A stretch of 64,000 nucleotides of DNA from NCBI RefSeq assembly GCF_900100335.1, contig NZ_FNFE01000009.1, forward strand, positions 124,001 to 188,000, given 5' to 3'. Position 1 is the stretch's first letter. Each line of letters opens with the position of its first letter. Shown here one piece after another: positions 31,515-64,000 of the stretch. Source of the DNA: Natronorubrum texcoconense (GTDB taxonomy: Archaea; Halobacteriota; Halobacteria; Halobacteriales; Natrialbaceae). The position numbers and the translations under genes were made by a program. Below the pieces are notes generated by a model. The model did not search any database. It saw only the letters and a list, made by a program, of their open reading frames with translations, and was not told the origin of the DNA.

Positions 31515-33221
31515 GTGTTCTCTCTTACATTTCTGTCGGGAATATTACTTGCAACCGTGGCGATCGGAACAGCGGCGGCACTCCTCGCCTGGCGAGAACG
31601 ACCCGAGCCGGGCGCCGTCCCGCTCGTCGTGATGCTCACCGGACAGTGCATCTGGTCGGCGCTCCTCGTTTTCGATCTGGAGGCATCGACGCTCGGCGGG
31701 AAAGTCTTCTGGGCGAATCTCAGGTGGATCGGCGTCGTCGCCATTCCGGTCGGCTGGCTGCTCTTCTCGCTGGAGTACACCGGCCGGGATCGGTACGTCC
31801 AGCCACGCTACGTCGCGCTCGTCTCGATCGTTCCGGTCCTCACCGTAATCTTTGCATTGACCGACAGTAGCCTGCTCTACACCGACTCGAGACTCGTCTA
31901 CGAAGGCGATATGCTGTTGCTCAGCCGGACTCCCGGCCCCTGGTTCTGGGTGATCGCCGCCTACACCTACCTGCTCGGACTGCTCGGAGCCGTTCCACTC
32001 TTGGAGCTGATTCGGAACGATTCGCTGCCGTTCAGAGGGCAAAGCGCCGCACTGCTGATCGGGATCGTGGCGCCGTGGGCGAGCAACCTCCTCTTTCTCC
32101 TGGGGGCGATTCCGATCCCGGGTCTCGACCCTACACCGGTCGCGTTTTCGATCTCCGGGGTCGCCTGCCTCGGCGCACTCACGCGGTTTCAGCTCTTCGG
32201 GACGAGTCCGTCGCCGAACCCGCGTGCACGCCGACTGCTCTTCGAGCGGATGCCGGACGGTGCCATCGTCGTCGACGGACACGACTACGTCGTCGACATC
32301 AACGAAACCGGTGCGGCGATTCTGGGAACGGTACCTCGTGCTGTGCTGGGGAGTCCGCTTCGAGAAGCCGTTCCCGACGATTTCCACGTCTCGTCGGACG
32401 GCTCGGTCTCGGTGCAAGGCCCGTTCCGAAGCAGAGACGACGAGCGACTGTACGACGTGACGGCGACGCGTATCACCGACGTCCAGGATCGAACGATCGG
32501 CCACGTCATCACGTTTCACGATATCAGCGAGCACGTGCGACAGCAACAGCGCCACGAGGTCCTGAACCGCGTCTTCAGACACAACATCCGGACGGAGACG
32601 AACGTCATCAGCAGCTACGCGGAACTGCTCGCAGACGGCGCGAATCAGGACGTCGCCGACGAAATCACGGCGAGTGCGCGACGTATCGAATCGCTGGCGA
32701 CCAAAGCCCGCGAAATCATCGACGTCTTCGAACAGGGACGCGAATCGATCGAGCCCGTCTCACTCGAGGTGCTCCTCCGCGATGTGAGCACGGCCGTCCG
32801 TACCGAGTACCCGAACGCTCGCATCGAACGCGACTCGAATCTCGAGGGGATCTACGTCGCCAACGTTCTCGAGCCCGTGTTCGCGAACCTCGTCGAAAAC
32901 GGCATCGAACACAACACCGGCTCGGGCCCGTTCGTTCGAATCGAGGTCGAGGCGGACGACGACCGGGTGCGGATCCGTATCGCGGATAACGGCCCCGGAA
33001 TCGACGCCTACGAGCGATCGTCGGTCGAACGCGGGACCGAGACGCCGCTCGACCACGGGAGCGGTCTCGGCCTCTGGTTGGCCAAGTGGGGCGTCGAAAT
33101 CGCGGGCGGCTCGGTGACCTTCGGGACGAACGAGCCGACCGGGTCGGTCGTGACTATCGAGGTCCCACTGTTGTGCCCGTCCGGCGAATCAGGCGACGAG
33201 TCGAACGAGGCCGCGCCCTGA
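31515..33221 (+). CDS. 7TM-type membrane histidine kinase with PAS domain
   Basis: 568 residues, GTG start. Residues 1-215 carry about seven membrane helices of the His_kin_7TM type. A PAS domain (about 235-340) begins RMPDGAIVVDGHDYVVDINETG. The phospho-acceptor region is LNRVFRHNIRTETNVISSYAELL with His356. The ATPase domain has the N box VFANLVENGIEHN, G1 IADNGPGI and G2 HGSGLGLWLAKWG. A typical haloarchaeal sensor kinase. The signal is unknown, and no response regulator lies next to it. Confidence 0.92.
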   Translation: MFSLTFLSGILLATVAIGTAAALLAWRERPEPGAVPLVVMLTGQCIWSALLVFDLEASTLGGKVFWANLRWIGVVAIPVGWLLFSLEYTGRDRYVQPRYVALVSIVPVLTVIFALTDSSLLYTDSRLVYEGDMLLLSRTPGPWFWVIAAYTYLLGLLGAVPLLELIRNDSLPFRGQSAALLIGIVAPWASNLLFLLGAIPIPGLDPTPVAFSISGVACLGALTRFQLFGTSPSPNPRARRLLFERMPDGAIVVDGHDYVVDINETGAAILGTVPRAVLGSPLREAVPDDFHVSSDGSVSVQGPFRSRDDERLYDVTATRITDVQDRTIGHVITFHDISEHVRQQQRHEVLNRVFRHNIRTETNVISSYAELLADGANQDVADEITASARRIESLATKAREIIDVFEQGRESIEPVSLEVLLRDVSTAVRTEYPNARIERDSNLEGIYVANVLEPVFANLVENGIEHNTGSGPFVRIEVEADDDRVRIRIADNGPGIDAYERSSVERGTETPLDHGSGLGLWLAKWGVEIAGGSVTFGTNEPTGSVVTIEVPLLCPSGESGDESNEAAP

Positions 33222-52189: not shown

Positions 52190-53311
52190 TTACCGAACCC
52201 GATCGAGCGTCACCGAGACGGTCGTTCCACGCGGATGGTTGTCGGTGATCTCGAGGTCGCCGTCGAGGAGATCCAGCACGGTCGTCACCAGATAGAGGCC
52301 GGTCCCCATCCCCGAGTCGGCGTCGAACCTGGCGTCGGGATCACTGAGGAGGTGCTTTTGGGAGTCGGAGATGCCGACCCCATCGTCCGCGACGACGACC
52401 GTCGTTCGATCGACCGTCGTCTCGAGTGCGACCGTGACCGACGCGGTGGACCGATCGGTGTGGACGGCGGCGTTCGAGAGCAGTTGCGCGAACACGGAGC
52501 CGAGCGTCGGTGAGGCGGAGACGACGACGGGTTCGTCCGGCAGCGCCGTTCGATCGACGGCGACGGCGTCGCCGAACTCCTGGCGAAGCCGGTCCAGTTC
52601 CGTCTCGAGGACGGCGACGAGGTCGCAGGGTTCGCGTTCGACGTCGATATCGGCGGCGAGGACGTCCATGAGTTCGGCGGCCGTATCCGTGAGCTCGAGG
52701 GTGTGCGTTGCAGCCTCGAGCAGCGCCTCGAGAGCCGGTTCGTCTCGGGGATCGACGCCCGATCGGAGCTGATCCCCCCAGCCGACGACCATACTCAGGT
52801 CGTTGCGGATGTCGGTTCTGACGAGTCGATTCAGCAGTGCGAGTCGGTGGTTCCTGTCGAGAAGCTGGCGCTGGGTTCGCGCTCGCTCGATCGCGTACCC
52901 GATCGTTCGAAGGAGCAGTTCGGCCGTGATCGAGCCCTTGACGAGGTAATCCTGTGCGCCACACCGGATCGCGTCGACGCCGAGTTCTCCCTCGTCGTGT
53001 CCCGTCAGCACGACGATCGGGACCGACGGGGCACGGTCGACGAGCCGATCGATCGTCTCGAGCCCGGCGCTGTCCGGGAGGGTGAGATCGAGCAAGACGA
53101 CGTCCGGTGGCTCGGACTCCACTCGTTCGATGGCGGCCGAGAGCCGATCGACGTGCTCGACCGAGTCGATGCTGACCGCGGCGTCACGGCCGCTCCGCTC
53201 GAGTGCGGTCTGGTGCTCCGTGATCAGCCGGTCGACGAACCGAGCGTCGTCGGGATTGTCCTCGACGAGCAGGAGGTCGACCGCACGCAACGAGTCCATT
53301 TCGCACACCAT
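52190..53311 (-). CDS. Receiver-plus-histidine-kinase-like protein lacking the phospho-acceptor His
   Basis: 373 residues. Receiver domain VDLLLVEDNPDDARFVDRL, phospho-Asp in DVVLLDLTLPDSAG, Lys in QDYLVKGSI. Then a coil and dimerisation helix LNRLVRTDIRNDLSMVVGWGDQL. Here the His usual in haloarchaeal H boxes (R-H-D/N-IRN) is Thr (codon 52814-52816). The ATPase domain is intact (LLSNAAVHTD, VADDGVGISDSQ, GMGTGLYLVTTVL). It may act on another protein or dimerise with an intact kinase. ATG 53299 is an alternative start. Divergent from the next gene. Confidence 0.88.
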   Translation of the reverse strand: MVCEMDSLRAVDLLLVEDNPDDARFVDRLITEHQTALERSGRDAAVSIDSVEHVDRLSAAIERVESEPPDVVLLDLTLPDSAGLETIDRLVDRAPSVPIVVLTGHDEGELGVDAIRCGAQDYLVKGSITAELLLRTIGYAIERARTQRQLLDRNHRLALLNRLVRTDIRNDLSMVVGWGDQLRSGVDPRDEPALEALLEAATHTLELTDTAAELMDVLAADIDVEREPCDLVAVLETELDRLRQEFGDAVAVDRTALPDEPVVVSASPTLGSVFAQLLSNAAVHTDRSTASVTVALETTVDRTTVVVADDGVGISDSQKHLLSDPDARFDADSGMGTGLYLVTTVLDLLDGDLEITDNHPRGTTVSVTLDRVR

Positions 53312-53510
53312 GGGATGCGACCATGCTATCAGTTCCGGTGTCGTTCGAACGCCTGGTACGTTCCGCGGCACCCGAGTGACTCGAGCGACCCGATCGGAGA
53401 CCCCGTGCAGTCGAGCGACGCGAAACGCTTCCTCTCGTTGATCGCTTCGCCTCCCGGGCGAATGCGCCACGAGACCGAATAGCTAAGCCCCTGCCGTCGG
53501 ACTCTCTCAC

Positions 53511-54332
53511 ATGACTCGTCGCGAACTGGACGTTCCACGGGCGACTCATACGGCGCTCGACGCGTTCGCGCTGCTCTCGAAGAAGTGGCACCCGGTCGTC
53601 GTTGCCGTGCTCCATCACCACGGCTCGCTCGGATTCAACGGCCTCCTCGAGGCGATCCCGGACCTCTCGGGGAAGGTATTGACCGACACGCTCGAGGCGT
53701 TGCAGGACGCCGGGCTCGTCGACCGAACGGTCGTCAGCGAGTCGCCGCTCAGAGTCGAGTACGAACTCACCGAGGCGGGAGCGGACCTCGAGCCGATCTT
53801 CGATGATTTGGGTGCGTGGGGGGACCGACACCTCGGGGCCGCGACGCCAACGATCCTGCTCGCCGACGCCGATCGGCGAATCACCGACCTGTACGGACAG
53901 TGGTTGGCCGATCGCTACACCGTCGCTCGAGCGCACACCGCCGATGACGTCGATCGCTACCTGCGGGAGTCGATCGACGTCGTGGTCTACGACGAGGGGC
54001 TTCCGGGAGTCAGCGCAGCCGACGTCCCTCCCGCCGCTGGGGAGGGGTGCCGGACGATCCTGCTCGTCGGTGACCGACCCGAACTCGATCTGCTCGAGAT
54101 CGAGTGCGACGACGTGCGACGCAAGCCGATCGTCCGCGAGACGCTGCTCGAGGCGATCGACGACCAACTGCGCCGACGGGGCGAGTCGGCCGACGACCGC
54201 GAACGCGGCTCGCTGGTCGCCAAGCGGTCGCTTCTCGAGTCGGTGTACTCGCAGGACCGTCTCACACGGCAGGCGGCGTACCGCGACCTCGAGTCGCAAC
54301 TCGAGGCGCTTTCGGACGGACTCGAGAAGTGA
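53511..54332 (+). CDS. HxlR winged helix fused to receiver and HalX-like tail
   Basis: 273 residues. Residues 1-105 form an HxlR-type winged helix (LDAFALLSKKWHPVVVAVLHHHGSLGFNGLLEAI, SGKVLTDTLEALQDAGLVDR, YELTEAGADLEPI). Residues 112-230 resemble a response-regulator receiver (TILLADADRRITDLYGQWLADRYTVARAHTADDVDRYL, Asp in VVYDEGLPG, KPIVRETLLEAI). A C-terminal helix (LVAKRSLLESVYSQDRLTRQAAYRDLESQLEALSDGLEK) matches the HalX coiled tail. Fusion of a DNA-binding domain in front of a receiver-HalX is unusual. Divergent from the receiver/kinase gene, suggesting functional pairing. Confidence 0.85.
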   Translation: MTRRELDVPRATHTALDAFALLSKKWHPVVVAVLHHHGSLGFNGLLEAIPDLSGKVLTDTLEALQDAGLVDRTVVSESPLRVEYELTEAGADLEPIFDDLGAWGDRHLGAATPTILLADADRRITDLYGQWLADRYTVARAHTADDVDRYLRESIDVVVYDEGLPGVSAADVPPAAGEGCRTILLVGDRPELDLLEIECDDVRRKPIVRETLLEAIDDQLRRRGESADDRERGSLVAKRSLLESVYSQDRLTRQAAYRDLESQLEALSDGLEK

Positions 54333-54744
54333 CCGTCGTCGTCACGAGCTGATTCTGCCATTCGCTCGGCGAGGAGTTCGTATGGTCGATCTGCCGTCGA
54401 ACTATAGTAGCCACTGGAAGTCAGTGCACACCCGATCGCACGACGGCCGCGCGGTTCGGAGCGTATGCGGTTCGAAACGAACGGAGTGAGTGAGAACCGC
54501 ACAAAGCGAACGGGGAGCGTAAGCGACCCGTGAGCAAACGGAGTGAGTGAGAACCGCGGATAGTGCGATCGGTGTGTAAACAGTTCCAGGTGTTACTATA
54601 CTGCGTTCGCTTTTTGCGGTCAGCGGATGAGCAAGACGGGTTGGGGTGCGAGAACGGTTACTCTGCAGTAACCTTCGCGCATACGTTCGGCTCAGATAAC
54701 CGTTAAGCGGCGATGCAGTGAGTCAACTGTACGAGCAATTTCCG
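54333..54744. other. Intergenic region holding a MITE-like element
   Basis: Most of the 412 bp is the inverted-repeat element described at 54403-54600. The remainder (54601-54744) holds the promoter region of the DUF4870-like gene; I see no gene. Confidence 0.5.
54403..54600. repeat. MITE-like element with ~38-bp imperfect inverted repeats
   Basis: Left arm 54403-54441 (TATAGTAGCCACTGGAAGTC...) pairs with right arm 54563-54600 (GTGCGATCGGTGTGTAAACA...) read as reverse complement, with few mismatches. The centre has a 21-bp direct repeat twice (54480-54500 and 54537-54557, core GGAGTGAGTGAGAACCGC) and GGAGCGTAAGCGACCCGTGAGC, close to a block in repeat copy A. No coding potential. Confidence 0.7.
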
Positions 54745-55167
54745 ATGAAATCGACCGAAACCGAACTGGCGGCTGGCCGAACCGACACTGACCGCGTGGA
54801 GACCGAACCGATCGTCGGCGGACTCGACGAAAACGTTGCCGGGGCGCTGACGTACCTCTTTGCGCCGTTTACCGGGCTCGTACTGTACCTCCTCGAGGAA
54901 AACAACAAGTTCGTCCGGTTTCACGCCCTCCAGAGCATGATCGTTTTCGGCGGACTGTTTGCGGCCGTCGTTGCGCTGATGATCTTCCAGACGATACTCG
55001 TCCAGATATCGTTCGTCGGCTGGATATTCGCGATCGTGGTGAGTCTGGTCTCGCTGCTCCTCGCGCCGGTCATCTTCGTTCTCTGGCTCTTCCTCATCGT
55101 CAAGGCCTACAAGGGAGACCGCTACGGCCTGCCGATCGTCGGTGGCGTCGCCGAGGAGTACGTCTGA
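54745..55167 (+). CDS. DUF4870-like membrane protein
   Basis: 140 residues from ATG 54745 (MKSTETELA). Core pattern VAGALTYLFAPFTGLVLYLLEENNKFVRFHALQSMIVFG is typical of DUF4870/Tic20-like proteins: a hydrophobic hairpin with VRFHALQS. About three to four membrane segments, and C-terminal KAYKGDRYGLPIVG. Function unknown. GTG 54718 gives a nine-residue longer version. Confidence 0.85.
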   Translation: MKSTETELAAGRTDTDRVETEPIVGGLDENVAGALTYLFAPFTGLVLYLLEENNKFVRFHALQSMIVFGGLFAAVVALMIFQTILVQISFVGWIFAIVVSLVSLLLAPVIFVLWLFLIVKAYKGDRYGLPIVGGVAEEYV

Positions 55168-55491: not shown

Positions 55492-58400
55492 ATGAAGTCC
55501 GAACATTCGAAACCGAATGTATCCGTTCGGTTCCTCGCAGTTTTCTTTTCGGTGTTACTAATCACGTCGGTCGTCGCTCCGGTTGCAGCGGTGGGTAGCT
55601 CCGACGTGGCGTCGGCGGATTCGACGAACGATGCGGAATTTGCCTCGGTGAGTGGCGACTCGATACAGCAAGCGTTGACGACCGACGATGGGTTGGGATC
55701 CTCAGACGGGGACGAAGAACCGGTTGACGACTCGAGTGACTCCACAGCGGGGCCGACGATATCCGCCACCGATGCGTCGTGTGACTTGATCGTCGAATCC
55801 GGAGGGTCTATTCAGTCGGCGATCTCCGACGCAAACTCGGGCGACACGATCTGTGTCGACGGTGGAACATACGAGGAAGCCGTCACGATTACCAGTGGGA
55901 TTTCGCTCGTCGCTGCAGACCCGGATAACCCACCGATTCTCGATGGCTCGGATGGACTCAGTACCGGGATTACGATCGAGGATCAGCAGGACGTTCTCGT
56001 TCGTGGCATCGTCATCCAGAACTACGATGACGATGGGATCCGTATTCACGAAGCCGCTTCAGTGACGGTCGAACAATCTGAGATTATTGACTCGGGCGAT
56101 ACCGGTATCTACGCGTCCAATTCGACAGATGTGACGATCGAGAACCTGAACGTCGACGGGTGGGAGACGGGAATCGAACTGGGCGAGGACGCTTCCGACG
56201 TGACGATCAGAGACTCCGAGTTCTCCGGGTTCGAAACCGGCGTATCGATCGAGGAAGGAGGGAGTTTCGGAGACATCGAGATCAGCGGAAACGAGTTCTC
56301 CGACGGTACCGCGGGCGCGAGCGCGATCTGGATCGACATCTCGCCCGACGAATCCGTCGACTTCGGGGCACTCGAAGTTTCGGACAACGCGATCGCAGTC
56401 GAGGAGTGGGGCCTCCTGATCAGTGGCTCCGGCGTCGGGTACGAGTCGGTCACGATCTCTGATAACGAGATCGCCGGGGGCGATGGCGTTTCCTGGTACG
56501 GCAGGTACACTGTGGAAGGGACGGTAACAGTCGCCGACAACGAGGTGTCGGACTCTGAGCACGGTATCGAAGTCTACACGTTCGACTCGACGTTCGGGAC
56601 GGTTAATTTCGACGAAAATACCGTAATGGCGAGCGGAGCTTCGTCTGGGTCGTCTGGAATTTTCTTCGGAGCTTACCCAGACGACAGTACCACGACCGTT
56701 GAACAGCTCTCGATGAGAGACAACGTCGTCGACTATGACGAATACGGTCTCAGCGTCAACTTGTGGGATACCGAAACTGGCGACATCGATATCTCCAGAA
56801 ACGTCGTTGACGCCCGGGGCCCTGGCGTGTTGCTCGGTCTCTACTCTATCCCGGAGAGCGCAGATACGATCTCGATCACCGACAACGCAATCACTGTCGA
56901 GGGCACTGCCCTCGAAATATCTACCTCCGAGATGGATGAACCCGGCGAGTTCGACGTATCCTCGAACCAGCTTACTGACAGCGAGTACGGAATCTTCATC
57001 AGCGAGAACACGCCGGTCGAGACGCTCACCGTCGGTCACAACGACATCACCGGAAACAGCGAGTTCGGTCTCTCGTACGACGGCGATGGCACCGTCGACG
57101 CAGTCGACAACTGGTGGGGAGCTGAAAACGGTCCCAGCGGCGACGTAGAAGACCCGGAGACGGGTGAGACGGCCGACGGTGATGGCGACGCCGTCAGCGA
57201 GACCGTCCTGTTCGATCCGTGGCTCGAGTCGCCGCAGTTCGAACCCGAACCGGACGAGGCGTTCTTCGAAATTCTCGAGGTGACGACGAACTCGCCCGTC
57301 GAGGCCGGCGAGACGCTCGAGGTCGACGTGACGGTGCTCAACGCCGGCGAGGAGTCGGCCACACAGACGATCGAACTCGAGGACACCGACGGCACTGTCG
57401 TCGATTCCGCCGAGCGGTCGATCGACGGCGGCAAGATGGACCAACTCACGCTCGATTGGGAGACGAGCGAGGACGACGGCGGACAGGGCGAACTCACGGT
57501 TCGAACCGACGACGACTCGACGAGCGAAGGGGTCACCGTTCTCTCCGACGACCCCATCGACGTCGATGCCTGTACAGTCATCGACACGCCGGGCGCGTAC
57601 GTGCTCACCGACGATCTGGTGGGCAGCGAAACCTGTCTCGAGATCGTCGCAGACGACGTCGTGCTCAACGGCATGGGGCACACAGTCGACGGTGTCGACG
57701 TCGACGAGGATGCCACCCAGTACGGTCTCGTCGTCGAGGAAGCGGACAACGTCGTCGTGCGGGACCTGACGGTCAGTAACTGGGACGTCGGTCTGCTTTT
57801 CAACGACGCAAACGACGGCGAACTCTCTACTGTCGTCACCGAGTACAACAACGCGGGGTTCAACCTCAATTCTGCCAACGACAACGAAATTTCAGAGCTG
57901 ACGACCCGCCACAACGCAAACCGCGGGCTTCACGTCGGGTGGGGATCCGGACATAGCCACGGAAACACGTTCACTGACGTTCACGCCTACGGAAACGAGG
58001 ATCAACAGAGTGCACTTTTCCCTGGTACCGTCTACGTTGGGTTAGGGATGAACAACGAGTTCATCGGGCTCAACGTTTCCGAAAATCAGGCCGGCCTGAC
58101 GACGATCGCGTCGGGGAACAGCTTCACCGACGTCATCGCCGACGACAACTCGAGATACGGACTGAACCTCGAGAGCAACTTCGGGAACGACTTCGAGAAC
58201 GTGAGCGTATCCGGCAACGGCTTGCACGGTATCCGAATCAGCCAGAGTGACTCGAACACGTTACACAACGTCACCGCGAGTGGGAACGACGGGACCGCAG
58301 TCTACCTCGTTGGCGACTTACGCGGCGGTTCGGCCGTCCGGGGGACCGTCATCGAGTCGCTAACCGCAACGGACAACGCTGGCAGTGGGTTGCAACTAAG

Positions 58401-61400
58401 TAATGCAGACGACAACGAGTTTGTCGACCTGACGTTCGACAACAACACCGACAGCTCGTTGAACCTCGCCAGCCGCTCGGACGGAAACAGCTTCGGCGAC
58501 GTCACCGTCGCCAACAGCTCTTGGCACGGTGTCGCCATCAGCTCCGACAGCCACGACAACGAGGCGACGAACCTGACGGTCACGAACAGCACGCAGGCGG
58601 CCGTTGCCTTCATCGGTGACGCGACGGGGAACACGGTGTCGAATGCAACCGTCACGGATAGCGGCTACGGCGTCCAGTCGTTCGACGGCGCGACCGAGAA
58701 CATCGTCTCCAAGCTCGATTTAGACGGCGTGACGCTCTCGTTCGAGGGGAAGAACGTCCAGCTCCGTTCGGCATCCGAGCCGACAGAATTGCCGAACGAG
58801 GCGGCTCCGATCGGTGCGTACTTGGACATCTCGGCAGGCGGTCAGGACCCACTCGTCGAAACGCTCCAAATCCACTACGACGACGTCGGCGACGTCGACG
58901 AGTCCTCACTCGAGCTGTGGCGGCTGAACGAGATGTGGAGCTCACCAGCGGACGAATCCTACGAGTCGGGCGTAAACACGGATGACGGCTACGTGTACGC
59001 CGAAAGCATCACCGAGTTCTCAACATTTGGAGTCTTTGGCGTGGAAGATGCTGATTCGTCTCCATCCCCTGGCCCGTCCCCCTCGCCAGACCCCGCCTCC
59101 TTTGACGTAACGATCCAAAACACGTCGACATCGGTGATCGCCGGTGATGAACTCGAGGTCACGGCTCTGATCGAGAACACCGGCGAAGAAGACGACGAAC
59201 AGACCATCGAGCTGGTCGCCGACGACGAGGTAGTCGATTCGGCCACGGTCTCACTGGACGCTGGCGACGAAGAGACGGTGATTTTCAGCTGGACGACGAA
59301 TCAGAGCCACGCGGGCGAATCGATCACGCTCGAGGTTCGAAGCGACGACGACGAGAATACTGTGACGGTTTCCATCGAGGATGGCGACCCGGACGAAAGC
59401 GATATTGTTGTCTACGGTGCGGATGTCGACACGGAGTCGGCGCTAGTCGACGAAACGATCACCGTTTCGGGTGATCTCTACAACTCTGGCGACATCGAGG
59501 GAACCGAGACGGTGGCACTCGAGGTTGACGGCGAGGTCGTCGGCGAGTCGACGGTCACCGTTGCGCCGGGTATCGATCGCGGCGGTGTCGAACTGAGTTG
59601 GACGCCGACGCTTGAGGATCTCCCGGATGACGAAGAGAGCACGGACGTGACGCTCACGCTCGACGGCTTCTTCGTCGGGACGGTGACGGTCGATCACGAC
59701 TATTCGGACATTCAGGTTGTCGCGGCCTCGACGTCCGACGTCGAACTCGTTGAGGGTGAGGAAACCCACGTCGTCGGGAGCATCTATCAGGCTGGTACCG
59801 CCGAGGGTACCGAGGAGATCGAACTCACGGCGACCAACCAGGAGACCGACGAAACTGATGTAATCGGGAGCCAGGAAGCGACCCTCTCGCCGGGGTTCTA
59901 CCACCTCGGGGCGATCAACATCAGCTACGTCCCCGACGAAGCGGGCACCTACGACCTCGAGCTCGGCGACCGTCCCGCCGGGACGGTCGAAGTCGAACCG
60001 GCCGAATCGGACATCCAGGTGATCGCGGCAGCGATCTCCGAGGCCGAAATCGTTGCGGGCGAGGAACTGCACGTAATCGGGAGCCTCTACCAGGCCGGCA
60101 ACGTCGAAGGGTCACAGAACATCTCGCTGACAGCGGTCCACAACGAAACCGGCGAAACGACGACTCTTACCACCATCGAGGAGTCAGTCGCGCCGAACGT
60201 CTACTGGCTCGGCGCGATCAACGAGACGTTCACGCTCGAGGAGGCCGGGACCTACGAGATCTATCTCGACGATCAGAACGCTGGCACGCTCGAGGTCGAG
60301 CCGGCGTACTCGGACATTCAGGTGATCGCCGCGTCGGCCTCGGCGACCGAGGTCGTCGAGGGCGAGGAACTACACGTCATCGGGAGCGTCTACCAGAGCG
60401 GCACCATCGCGGACGAAGAGGAGGTCGAACTGACCGCGACGCACCTCGAGTCGAACGAGACGACGACCATCGCCACGCAAACCACCCCTGAACTCTGGCC
60501 GAACGTCTACTACCTCGGCGCGCTGAACATCTCGTTCTCGTTCGACGACGCGGGGACGTACGAACTCGAATTGGGCGACCGTCCCGCCGGGACGGTCGAA
60601 GTCGAACCTGCCGAGTCGGACATCCAGGTGATCGCGGCGTCGATTTCCGAGGCCGAAATCGTTGCGGGCGAGGAACTGCACGTAATCGGGAGCCTCTACC
60701 AGGCCGGCAACGTGGCCGGACCACAGGACATCTCGCTGACCGCGGTCAACCAGGTGTCGGGAGAGACGACGAACCTCTCTACGGTCGAACGCACGGTCTA
60801 CCCGAACGTCTACCATCTCGGCTCGATCAACGAGACGTTCACGCTCGAGGAGGGCGGCACCTACGATATCTACCTCGACGACCGCAACGCGGGGACGCTC
60901 GAGGTCGAGCCGGCGTACTCGGACATCCAGGTGATCGCCGCATCGGCCTCGGCGACCGAAGTCATCGAGGACGAAGAGCTGTACGTAATCGGCAGCCTCT
61001 ACCAGAGCGGGACCATCGCGGGCGAGGAGGAGATCGAGCTGACCGCGACGAACATCGATACTGGCGAGACGACGACTATTGCCACGCAGGACACCCCTGA
61101 AATCTGGCCGAACGTCTACTACCTGGGCGCCATCAATATCTCGTTCTCGTTTGACGACGCGGGGACGTACGAACTCGAGCTCGGCGACCGTCCCGCCGGG
61201 ACCGTCGAGGTTGAACCTGCGGTCTCCGACATTCAGGTGATCGCGGCCTCGCCGGACGGATACAACCTCACCGTCGGTGAGGACGTCAACGTCATCGGGA
61301 GCGTCTACCAGGCCGGGAACATCGTGGGCGAGGAGGAGATCGAGCTCACCGCAACCCACAACGAGACGGGTGAGTCGGTGACTGTCGGCACACAGACCGT

Positions 61401-64000
61401 GACGGTCTCACCGAACGTCTACCATCTGGGCGCGCTCAACATCACGTTCGCACCCGACCAGGCAGGGACCTACGACCTCGAACTCGGCGAACGGGATGCC
61501 GGGTCCGTCTCCGTCGAGGAGTCGCTGTCAGACATTCAGGTCGTCGGGGCCTCGGTCGAGGACGTCGAACTGGTCGAGGGGGAACACACCCACGTGATCG
61601 GCAGCGTCTACCAGGCCGGTGAGGAGGGTGGCACCGAGACGATCGAACTGACGGCGACGCACAACGAGACGGGCGAGACCGAGGTCGTCGGCAGCCAGGA
61701 CGTCACGCTCGACCCCGGTTTCTACCACCTCGGCGCGATCAACATCACGTTCGAACCCGACGAACCCGGAACGTACGACCTCCAGCTCGGCGAGCAAAAT
61801 GCGGGCTGGGTCGAAGTGGAGCCGGCCGAATCGGACATTCAAGTGATCGCGGCGTCGATCTCCGAGGCCGAAATCGTCGCGGGCGAGGAGCTGTACGTGA
61901 TCGGCAGCCTCTACCAGGCCGGCACCATCGACGGCCCACAGGAGATCGAACTCAACGCGACCCATACTGGCACCGGTGAGACGACGACCCTCTCGACCGT
62001 CGAACACTCGGTGGCGCCGAACGTCTACCACCTGGGCGCGCTCAACGAGACGTTCACGCTCGAGGAGGCCGGGACCTACGAGATCGAGCTTGGCGACCGG
62101 AATGCGGGCACGCTCGAGGTCGAGCCAGCCTACTCGGACGTCCAGGTGATCGCCGCCTCGGCCTCGGCGACCGAAGTCATCGAGGGCGAGGAGCTGTACG
62201 TGATCGGGAGCGTCTACCAGAGCGGAACCATCGCGGGCGAGGAGGAGATCGAGTTGACCGCGACGCACGTCGAGTCGAACGAGACGACGACCATCGCCAC
62301 GCAAAACACCCCCACGCTCTGGCCGAACGTCTACTACCTCGGTGCGCTCAACATCTCGTTCACGCCCGACCAGGCGGGGACGTACGAACTCGAGCTGGGC
62401 GATCGCCCCGCGGGGACTGTCGAGGTCGAGCCGGCCGAATCGGATATCCAGGTGATCGCGGCGTCGATCTCCGAGGCCGAAATCGTCGCGGGCGAGGAGC
62501 TGTACGTGGTCGGCAGTATCTACCAGGCCGGAAACGTTGCCGGAACACAGGAGATTTCGCTGACGGCGGTCCACAATGAAACCGGCGAGACGACGAATCT
62601 CTCGACGGTCGAACGGTCGGCCCATCCGAACGTCTACTACCTCGGCAGCATCAACGAGACGTTCACGCTCACCGAACCCGGCACCTACGAGATCTACCTG
62701 GGCGACCGCAACTCGGGGACGCTCGAGGTCCTTCCGGCTGAGTCGGATATCCAGGTGATCGCCGCGTCGGCCTCCGAGACCGAGATTCCCCTCGGTGGCG
62801 ACGCGTACGTGATCGGGAGCGTCTACCAGGCCGGCACCATCGCGGGCGAGGAGGAGATCGAGCTGACTGCGACCCACCTCGAGTCGAACCAGACGACGAC
62901 CATCGGCACGCAAAACACCCCTGAGATCTGGCCGAACGTCTACTACCTCGGGGCGATCAACATCACGTTCGAGCCCGACCAGCTGGGGACGTACGACCTC
63001 ACGCTCGGTGACCGACCCGCCGGGTCGATCGACGTCTTCGAACCGACCGTCGAGCCCTCGATCACCGACGTTGCGGGTCACTCGAGCGGCTACGATCTCG
63101 AGATGGAGACGGATGCGGTCTACGCGAGCGAGGATACCACCGTTACGATCGACGTCGAATCCGATCTCGACCTCGATGAGGTGACGCTGCTGGTCTCCTC
63201 GCTGCAAACGACCTACTCGATCGCCGTAGACGCGGTCCACCACGACGGTGACACCTGGCACGCTGCGGTCCCCGTCGATTCGATACCCGACGACGGCGCG
63301 TACGCCCTCTCCGTGATCGCCGTCGACGAGCACGGACACGACGGGTTCGCCGCCGACGCCGACCCCCTCGTGATCGATCGCGAGGAGCCGGGGATGTCCG
63401 TCACGCTCGAGGACGTCGACAGCGACGACGCGACGGTCGTCGTCGAGAGCGACGAACCGCTCGCGGAAACGCCCGATATCACTGCTGAACTGATCGAATC
63501 CGACGGCTCGACGTCGGAGGCGAGCGTGACGATCGACGGCGACGACGGCACCGGGACGCAGTTCACGGGAACGCTCGAGTTCGACGAGTCGGGCAACTAC
63601 ACCGTCACCGTGGCCGGAACCGACCGTGCTGGTAACGTGGGCGAAAATACCGCGTCCGTCGTCGTCAACACCGGATTCACACTCGGAGACGGCGAGATCG
63701 TGATCGACGAGACGGGAACCACGGTCGCGTTCGACCTGGTCGACGACGCCGAGGACGCGATCAAGACCGAGGAGCTGTTCCTCGCGCTCTCGGAGAACTC
63801 GCTCAATACGAACCTCGACGGTGGCGAGCTCGGTGTTGGCTTCCTGACCGCCGAACTGGACAGCTTTATCGACTACCAGTTCGATCAGGGGGCGATCGAA
63901 AGTGCCACGATCGAGTTGGCGATCGACGAGGACGAACTCGCCGACGGTGTCGACGCCGAGGACGCGGTTCTCCACCACTACGACGAACCCGCGGGCGAGT
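55492..64000 (+). CDS. Giant secreted surface protein: beta-helix, CARDB-like domains and 11 tandem repeats (partial, runs off the window)
   Basis: One frame is open from ATG 55492 to the window end (at least 2836 residues). Signal peptide FLAVFFSVLLITSVVAPVAAV in residues 14-35. Region 1 (about 95-560): right-handed parallel beta-helix (IQSAISDANSGDTICVDGGTY, many G-I-x-I/D-N motifs). A CARDB-like Ig domain (about 585-680). Region 2 (about 685-1070): NosD-like beta-helix beginning DACTVIDTPGAYVLTDDL. Then LEVTALIENTGEEDDEQTIEL and VSGDLYNSGDIEGTETVAL CARDB-like domains. Residues 1405 to ~2518: eleven ~101-residue repeats. Then Ig-like domains rich in Asp/Glu. Probably a cell-surface adhesin or carbohydrate-binding/processing protein. 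The expected C-terminal anchor (PGF-CTERM or similar) lies beyond the window. Confidence 0.9.
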   Translation, partial: MKSEHSKPNVSVRFLAVFFSVLLITSVVAPVAAVGSSDVASADSTNDAEFASVSGDSIQQALTTDDGLGSSDGDEEPVDDSSDSTAGPTISATDASCDLIVESGGSIQSAISDANSGDTICVDGGTYEEAVTITSGISLVAADPDNPPILDGSDGLSTGITIEDQQDVLVRGIVIQNYDDDGIRIHEAASVTVEQSEIIDSGDTGIYASNSTDVTIENLNVDGWETGIELGEDASDVTIRDSEFSGFETGVSIEEGGSFGDIEISGNEFSDGTAGASAIWIDISPDESVDFGALEVSDNAIAVEEWGLLISGSGVGYESVTISDNEIAGGDGVSWYGRYTVEGTVTVADNEVSDSEHGIEVYTFDSTFGTVNFDENTVMASGASSGSSGIFFGAYPDDSTTTVEQLSMRDNVVDYDEYGLSVNLWDTETGDIDISRNVVDARGPGVLLGLYSIPESADTISITDNAITVEGTALEISTSEMDEPGEFDVSSNQLTDSEYGIFISENTPVETLTVGHNDITGNSEFGLSYDGDGTVDAVDNWWGAENGPSGDVEDPETGETADGDGDAVSETVLFDPWLESPQFEPEPDEAFFEILEVTTNSPVEAGETLEVDVTVLNAGEESATQTIELEDTDGTVVDSAERSIDGGKMDQLTLDWETSEDDGGQGELTVRTDDDSTSEGVTVLSDDPIDVDACTVIDTPGAYVLTDDLVGSETCLEIVADDVVLNGMGHTVDGVDVDEDATQYGLVVEEADNVVVRDLTVSNWDVGLLFNDANDGELSTVVTEYNNAGFNLNSANDNEISELTTRHNANRGLHVGWGSGHSHGNTFTDVHAYGNEDQQSALFPGTVYVGLGMNNEFIGLNVSENQAGLTTIASGNSFTDVIADDNSRYGLNLESNFGNDFENVSVSGNGLHGIRISQSDSNTLHNVTASGNDGTAVYLVGDLRGGSAVRGTVIESLTATDNAGSGLQLSNADDNEFVDLTFDNNTDSSLNLASRSDGNSFGDVTVANSSWHGVAISSDSHDNEATNLTVTNSTQAAVAFIGDATGNTVSNATVTDSGYGVQSFDGATENIVSKLDLDGVTLSFEGKNVQLRSASEPTELPNEAAPIGAYLDISAGGQDPLVETLQIHYDDVGDVDESSLELWRLNEMWSSPADESYESGVNTDDGYVYAESITEFSTFGVFGVEDADSSPSPGPSPSPDPASFDVTIQNTSTSVIAGDELEVTALIENTGEEDDEQTIELVADDEVVDSATVSLDAGDEETVIFSWTTNQSHAGESITLEVRSDDDENTVTVSIEDGDPDESDIVVYGADVDTESALVDETITVSGDLYNSGDIEGTETVALEVDGEVVGESTVTVAPGIDRGGVELSWTPTLEDLPDDEESTDVTLTLDGFFVGTVTVDHDYSDIQVVAASTSDVELVEGEETHVVGSIYQAGTAEGTEEIELTATNQETDETDVIGSQEATLSPGFYHLGAINISYVPDEAGTYDLELGDRPAGTVEVEPAESDIQVIAAAISEAEIVAGEELHVIGSLYQAGNVEGSQNISLTAVHNETGETTTLTTIEESVAPNVYWLGAINETFTLEEAGTYEIYLDDQNAGTLEVEPAYSDIQVIAASASATEVVEGEELHVIGSVYQSGTIADEEEVELTATHLESNETTTIATQTTPELWPNVYYLGALNISFSFDDAGTYELELGDRPAGTVEVEPAESDIQVIAASISEAEIVAGEELHVIGSLYQAGNVAGPQDISLTAVNQVSGETTNLSTVERTVYPNVYHLGSINETFTLEEGGTYDIYLDDRNAGTLEVEPAYSDIQVIAASASATEVIEDEELYVIGSLYQSGTIAGEEEIELTATNIDTGETTTIATQDTPEIWPNVYYLGAINISFSFDDAGTYELELGDRPAGTVEVEPAVSDIQVIAASPDGYNLTVGEDVNVIGSVYQAGNIVGEEEIELTATHNETGESVTVGTQTVTVSPNVYHLGALNITFAPDQAGTYDLELGERDAGSVSVEESLSDIQVVGASVEDVELVEGEHTHVIGSVYQAGEEGGTETIELTATHNETGETEVVGSQDVTLDPGFYHLGAINITFEPDEPGTYDLQLGEQNAGWVEVEPAESDIQVIAASISEAEIVAGEELYVIGSLYQAGTIDGPQEIELNATHTGTGETTTLSTVEHSVAPNVYHLGALNETFTLEEAGTYEIELGDRNAGTLEVEPAYSDVQVIAASASATEVIEGEELYVIGSVYQSGTIAGEEEIELTATHVESNETTTIATQNTPTLWPNVYYLGALNISFTPDQAGTYELELGDRPAGTVEVEPAESDIQVIAASISEAEIVAGEELYVVGSIYQAGNVAGTQEISLTAVHNETGETTNLSTVERSAHPNVYYLGSINETFTLTEPGTYEIYLGDRNSGTLEVLPAESDIQVIAASASETEIPLGGDAYVIGSVYQAGTIAGEEEIELTATHLESNQTTTIGTQNTPEIWPNVYYLGAINITFEPDQLGTYDLTLGDRPAGSIDVFEPTVEPSITDVAGHSSGYDLEMETDAVYASEDTTVTIDVESDLDLDEVTLLVSSLQTTYSIAVDAVHHDGDTWHAAVPVDSIPDDGAYALSVIAVDEHGHDGFAADADPLVIDREEPGMSVTLEDVDSDDATVVVESDEPLAETPDITAELIESDGSTSEASVTIDGDDGTGTQFTGTLEFDESGNYTVTVAGTDRAGNVGENTASVVVNTGFTLGDGEIVIDETGTTVAFDLVDDAEDAIKTEELFLALSENSLNTNLDGGELGVGFLTAELDSFIDYQFDQGAIESATIELAIDEDELADGVDAEDAVLHHYDEPAGE
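59704..63045 (+). repeat. Eleven tandem 303/306-bp repeats in the surface-protein gene
   Basis: Units start at SDIQV (or SDVQV) codons near 59704, 60007, 60310, 60616, 60919, 61225, 61528, 61831, 62134, 62440 and 62743, spaced 303 or 306 bp. Consensus pieces: SDIQVIAAS, EIVAGEEL, YQAGTIAG, PNVYYLGAIN, AGTYELELGDRPAGTVEVEP. Two alternating types (ISEAEIVAGEEL and SASATEVIEGEEL) form a 609-bp higher-order dimer, seen at 60007-60616 and 61831-62440. Confidence 0.9.

Follow-up and report, generated by a model that had tools for sequence, protein, structure and literature searches.

The Haloferax S-layer glycoprotein is an example of the PGF-CTERM / archaeosortase A substrates of haloarchaea. Periscope proteins (SasG, Rib and Sgo_0707) carry highly identical repeats, the number of which varies strongly even between similar strains (PMC8201768). 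In titin-type Ig arrays, neighbouring domains are diverged (PMC4660218).

The window analysed here, 64,000 nucleotides of Natronorubrum texcoconense, ends inside the gene for a giant protein that contains a tandem array of 11 units. Like the Periscope proteins, this protein would present surface-anchored tandem beta-rich domains carrying an N-terminal functional head. Unlike them, it had neighbouring units that were 57% alike, and the number of units across species was 11, 9, 8 or 7. Periscope proteins are the nearest functional class, yet opposite in the pattern of identity and number. As in titin-type Ig arrays, adjacent domains of the window protein differed more than spaced ones, whereas most of its homologues were homogenised.

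With the haloarchaeal archaeosortase A substrates the protein shared a putative signal peptide, a PGF-CTERM tail and the presence of archaeosortase A in the genome. It differs from them in being giant and modular, and it was not indicated to form the S-layer itself. The units resembled CARDB (PF07705) in their predicted Ig-like beta-sandwich and in a profile comparison with the CARDB domains of the same proteins (probability 94%), but they missed the Pfam CARDB model and had conserved motifs of their own (SDIQVIAAS, GSxYQxG and YxLGxxN).

The giant protein and its repeat units

The gene and the features of its product, all on the + strand, were located as follows.

55492..64000 in the window, +, gene for the predicted giant surface protein (3011 aa), an open frame from the ATG at 55492 to a stop at 64527 beyond the window
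55960..56316, +, highest-scoring of the six Beta_helix/NosD stretches that make up the right-handed beta-helix region at the N-terminus (PF13229 1.6e-36, PF05048 4.7e-30)
59110..59364, +, CARDB domain 5' of the array (PF07705 3.9e-08, residues 1207-1291)
59395..59700, +, unit 0, a diverged CARDB-like cap directly 5' of unit 1, weakly matched by the unit profile (E 3.2e-4)
59701..60003, +, unit 1 (101 aa)
60004..60306, +, unit 2, type B
60307..60612, +, unit 3, type C (102 aa)
60613..60915, +, unit 4, type B
60916..61221, +, unit 5, type C (102 aa)
61222..61524, +, unit 6, the central unit X, with the unusual junction VSVEES|LSDI at its end
61525..61827, +, unit 7, Y, of conserved position (7 of 11, 6 of 9, 5 of 8 or 7) by leave-one-out profile search and X+Y tree
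61828..62130, +, unit 8, type B
62131..62436, +, unit 9, type C (102 aa)
62437..62739, +, unit 10, type B
62740..63042, +, unit 11, C-like end unit
63043..64000 and on past the window, +, C-terminal Ig-like region (Big_3_4-like; PF13754 2.8e-05, below its cut-off)
64447-64524, beyond the window, +, PGF-CTERM sorting tail (TIGR04126 26.9 bits, cut-off 24.5)

The order of the domains was a signal-peptide-like start, beta-helix, CARDB, unit 0, the 11 units, the Ig-like region and PGF-CTERM. The N-terminus at the ATG was signal-peptide-like (MKSEHSKPNVSVRFLAVFFSVLLITSVVAPVAA), and the C-terminus displayed the PGF motif, hydrophobic helix and basic end of a PGF-CTERM (IPGFGLVAALVALLAIALFRTR). An archaeosortase A gene was present in the genome (TIGR04125 328.9 bits), and the PGF-CTERM tail recurred in nearly all homologues. 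No SLH domain (PF00395) was found in the genome. The signal-peptide-like start, the PGF-CTERM tail and the archaeosortase A gene supported the assignment as a surface protein made in the earlier note. The protein is probably secreted and PGF-CTERM-anchored, with processing and lipid anchoring predicted from its sequence. The heads varied among the homologues and included beta-helix, PQQ propeller, carboxypeptidase-regulatory-like and other domains.

The array consisted of 11 in-frame units of 101 or 102 aa at 59701-63042. The successive spacings were 303, 303, 306, 303, 306, 303, 303, 303, 306 and 303 bp, which confirmed the 11 repeats and the 303- or 306-bp spacing reported before. Tandem Repeats Finder gave a period of 303 bp, 10.2 copies, 68% matches and a score of 2080, far above chance. 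Unit 0 scored 20.5 bits against CARDB, slightly below the cut-off, and it was present in the homologues examined, as judged by eye from the sequences upstream of 36 arrays.

No Pfam family was matched by the units at a useful score, and units 7, 8 and 9 had no CARDB match. A sequence search of solved structures gave nothing useful. Two arrays, one of 11 and one of nine units, were modelled with AlphaFold (mean pLDDT 82 and 79). Each unit was predicted as a beta-sandwich of seven to eight strands, and the modelled units matched Ig/FnIII-type chains in structure. The pTM of 0.30 in both models meant that they gave the fold of the unit, not the mutual arrangement of the units. We interpreted each unit, from these predicted models, to be an Ig/FnIII-like beta-sandwich of about 100 residues and a distant relative of CARDB. 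A hinge between X and Y was considered and rejected; the linker there was weak in the 11-unit model, and this was absent from the 9-unit model.

Divergence and alternation of the units in the window

The repeats had been described as near-identical. This description was not borne out by the pairwise identities, which were 49–89% in protein and 60–88% in DNA. Adjacent units had a mean amino acid identity of 57%, compared with 67% for next-but-one units. The 609-bp dimer with two alternating types of unit was found in part of the array only. Identity within type was 77–81% for type B (u2, u4, u8 and u10) and 69–89% for type C (u3, u5, u9 and u11). These formed two B-C-B-C blocks (u2-u5 and u8-u11) rather than a single alternating run, and u1, u6 and u7 did not fit.

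Among the positions at which two units agreed in amino acid, they also agreed in codon at 73–75% when of the same type and at 63% when neighbours, compared with 50% expected from codon usage. The synonymous sites among the units are well diverged, and these levels of agreement indicated that the dimer was not a recent duplication. On the other hand, stretches of perfect identity, as long as 68 bp between u2 and u4, showed some exchange between units.

The alternation could be kept because overly similar neighbours misfold together, in which case the dimer would be the unit of duplication. The higher similarity of the next-but-one units was as expected from this, and divergence of neighbouring domains is known to limit misfolding (PMC4660218). 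However, most homologues had neighbouring units 70–80% alike and lacked the alternation. As a general explanation this is unlikely; a guard against misfolding may account for the alternation in the window protein alone.

Unit number, central pair and evolution of the arrays

Related loci were found in Natronorubrum and other Natrialbaceae, with some in Halorubrum, Halovenus, Natronomonas and Natronocalculus. Within the genus, six of 10 genomes had the units; the figures were 27 of 125 for the family and 27 of the 391 genomes sampled across the class. No relative was found in the viral contigs searched.

Complete arrays numbered 36, and 35 of them, from about 30 haloarchaeal genomes, were kept for counting. 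The one set aside, in Halorubrum sp. JWXQ-INN 858 (L042), was at first taken as eight units and was rejected for the N's inside it. A run of N's with a break of the frame lay within this array (L042:11500-11540), probably at an assembly gap. The array of N. sulfidifaciens (L059:11929-14772) was scored as nine units plus one partial unit. This partial extra unit, near the C-terminal end, was taken as a remnant of recombination within a unit.

The 35 arrays fell into four sizes: 11 units in 17, nine in 15, eight in two and seven in one. None had 10 units or more than 11. Natrarchaeobaculum sulfurireducens AArc-Mg and AArc1 (L077 and L078), the sole pair of strains compared, had seven units each, on complete plasmid records. 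The two strains had the same downstream kinase, but the annotated array gene was 8.1 kb in one strain and 10.7 kb in the other. The tree of the C-terminal region and that of X+Y each required the 11-unit state to change seven times or more on branches with good support, and 11- and 9-unit arrays occurred as neighbours on both.

According to the earlier note, these are near-identical repeats, probably expanded recently, and variation in length among strains could change how far the protein reaches out of the S-layer. This view corresponds to a stalk of the Periscope type, with a repeat number that is free between strains and sets the reach of the head. The tandem Ig-like repeats on a surface protein, the clear signs of recombination and the existence of such a known class (PMC8201768) agree with this. 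However, the neighbouring units in the window were diverged, also at their synonymous sites, just four unit numbers occurred across species, and the two strains of one species agreed. Uniform repeat number with low identity between neighbouring units, the outcome that the note itself had set against its proposal, was close to what was found. The proposal is already largely refuted across species, and we consider it very improbable. Across species, the number looks set by function, and variation in length as a means of setting reach was not supported.

The arm units, i.e. those on either side of the centre, were 76.8% alike within proteins and 59.9% between proteins. Equal position gave no gain in identity between proteins (60.9 versus 60.1%). 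This showed that the arm units are homogenised inside each protein by concerted evolution. The proposed expansion by unequal recombination was therefore sustained as regards recombination in general, but not as regards its being recent; the window gene was one of those with the least homogenised units. That the number stayed constant despite ongoing exchange suggested selection on the number.

Within each protein, the central and terminal units were the least similar ones, X among them. A profile of X alone was unreliable, as the search drifted to Y, and the centre was placed instead by a profile of Y and by a marker at the junctions. The Y profile, seeded with unit 7 of the window and used in leave-one-out fashion, landed on unit 7 in 16 of the 17 11-unit arrays; among the 15 9-unit arrays, it landed on unit 6 in 14. 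The marker, independent of this profile, was the fifth-last residue of the unit, which was acidic at nearly all junctions but not at X-Y, save in one array. It placed X-Y at 6|7 in 16 of the 17 11-unit arrays, at 5|6 in all 15 9-unit arrays, and at 4|5 in both 8-unit arrays and in the 7-unit array. From these positions, both arms change together.

The N-side arm, which ends in X, exceeded the C-side arm, which starts with Y, by one unit in 33 of the 35 arrays; both 8-unit arrays violated this rule. When one arm was shuffled among the proteins, with kinship ignored, the rule held in 15.6 arrays on average and in 27 at most (100,000 trials). Because such shuffles ignore relatedness, the argument is carried by the changes on the trees.

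Equal arms could also arise if gene conversion overwrote one half of the array with the other, with no need of selection. In the window, units i and i+6 exceeded the expected identity by 13.8 points, and u1 was similar to u7, as expected from such copying. However, no consistent register was detected in the other 11-unit arrays or in the 15 9-unit arrays (means of 0.8 and -0.3 points, first pair omitted). Copying of halves is highly doubtful as the source of the equal arms.

A further possibility is that the discrete numbers reflect history and have no function: 11- and 9-type arrays would have an early origin, and paralogues and species would have exchanged entire arrays or the central parts of them. 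Several genomes held two arrays. In two paralogues of one genome (L064 and L065), X+Y were nearly identical and the C-terminal regions far apart, which suggests conversion between them. Such movement of central segments between paralogues reduces the number of independent changes in unit number.

On the other hand, sister groups differed in number on both trees. Examples were L054 (11 units) with L073 and L075 (nine units), and L068 (11 units) near L070 (nine units). Such sister groups held each other's nearest or near-nearest arrays, which suggested change in place, and the X+Y tree grouped neither the 11-unit arrays nor the 9-unit arrays. We consider an explanation by history unlikely but not negligible, and favour selection on the number.

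Signalling genes beside the array and the proposed rod

The genes that flank the giant gene were as follows.

52190..53470, -, receiver + HATPase_c protein (PF00072 1.5e-18, PF02518 1.8e-14)
53511..54332, +, HxlR-type HTH regulator with a HalX-like tail (PF01638 3.8e-22)
54718..55167, +, small ORF, located between the regulator and the giant gene, with hydrophobic stretches; no family found
64548-66410 in window numbering, beyond the window (L001:12549-14411), convergent, 7TM histidine kinase (PF16927), about 20 bp past the giant gene

In 23 of the 37 loci, a 7TM histidine kinase lay within 3 kb of the array, and in 12 the distance was 500 bp at most; the kinase could be on either side and on either strand; about a third of the loci had no kinase nearby. 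Such kinases are few, with only five among the 57 HATPase_c matches of the window genome. The chance expectation was estimated at about 1% per locus, from five kinases with a reach of about 8 kb in 4.64 Mb. PF16927 was found in all 10 neighbour kinases tested, and the kinases adjacent to arrays belonged to at least three clades.

Homologues of the HxlR-type regulator were found near 18 of the 37 arrays, and those of the receiver-HATPase protein near 20, two of them weak. The genes for these two proteins stood back to back in the window (52190-54332), and the pair recurred near many arrays in changing order. A second 7TM histidine kinase was present at 31515-33221 of the window, where the list of open reading frames showed no giant surface gene nearby. 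No paper on the array family or its kinase link was found in the literature covered, which includes few subscription journals. From the gene neighbourhoods, we infer that the giant protein is linked to the neighbouring two-component genes.

The interpretation we prefer, to which we would give about an even chance, is that of an anchored two-segment rod of fixed length, its unit number held by selection and its function tied to the neighbouring signalling genes. The array would form the displayed rod of a giant surface protein anchored by way of archaeosortase. Of its two arms, the one on the N side runs up to X and the one on the C side begins at Y, and they meet at the special X-Y junction. 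Within a protein, the arm units are kept alike by recombination or gene conversion. The number of units (2k+1, i.e. 11, 9 or 7) and the central position of X were observed, and selection would hold them there. The rod would then serve as a spacer of fixed length between a changeable N-terminal head and the membrane anchor, and the protein may act together with the 7TM histidine kinase, the receiver-ATPase and the HxlR-type regulator, or be under their control.

Alternatively, the two arms might pair by folding back at X-Y, which would allow units to be gained or lost only in both arms simultaneously, and this folded structure might be the outer part of a signalling device read by the neighbouring 7TM kinase. 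Folding back would explain why both arms change together. Antiparallel pairing (units i and 12-i) was sought in the unit identities, and no convincing signal was detected. This arrangement appears quite doubtful.

The length of tandem-repeat surface proteins is usually regarded as free to vary. In the present arrays, the units are kept alike by recombination, but their number takes few values, the centre is fixed, and the steps occur in both arms. What sets the number of repeats is a question that can be tested directly in haloarchaea. The conserved signalling neighbours offer an initial clue to the function of a large and unstudied family of archaeal surface proteins.
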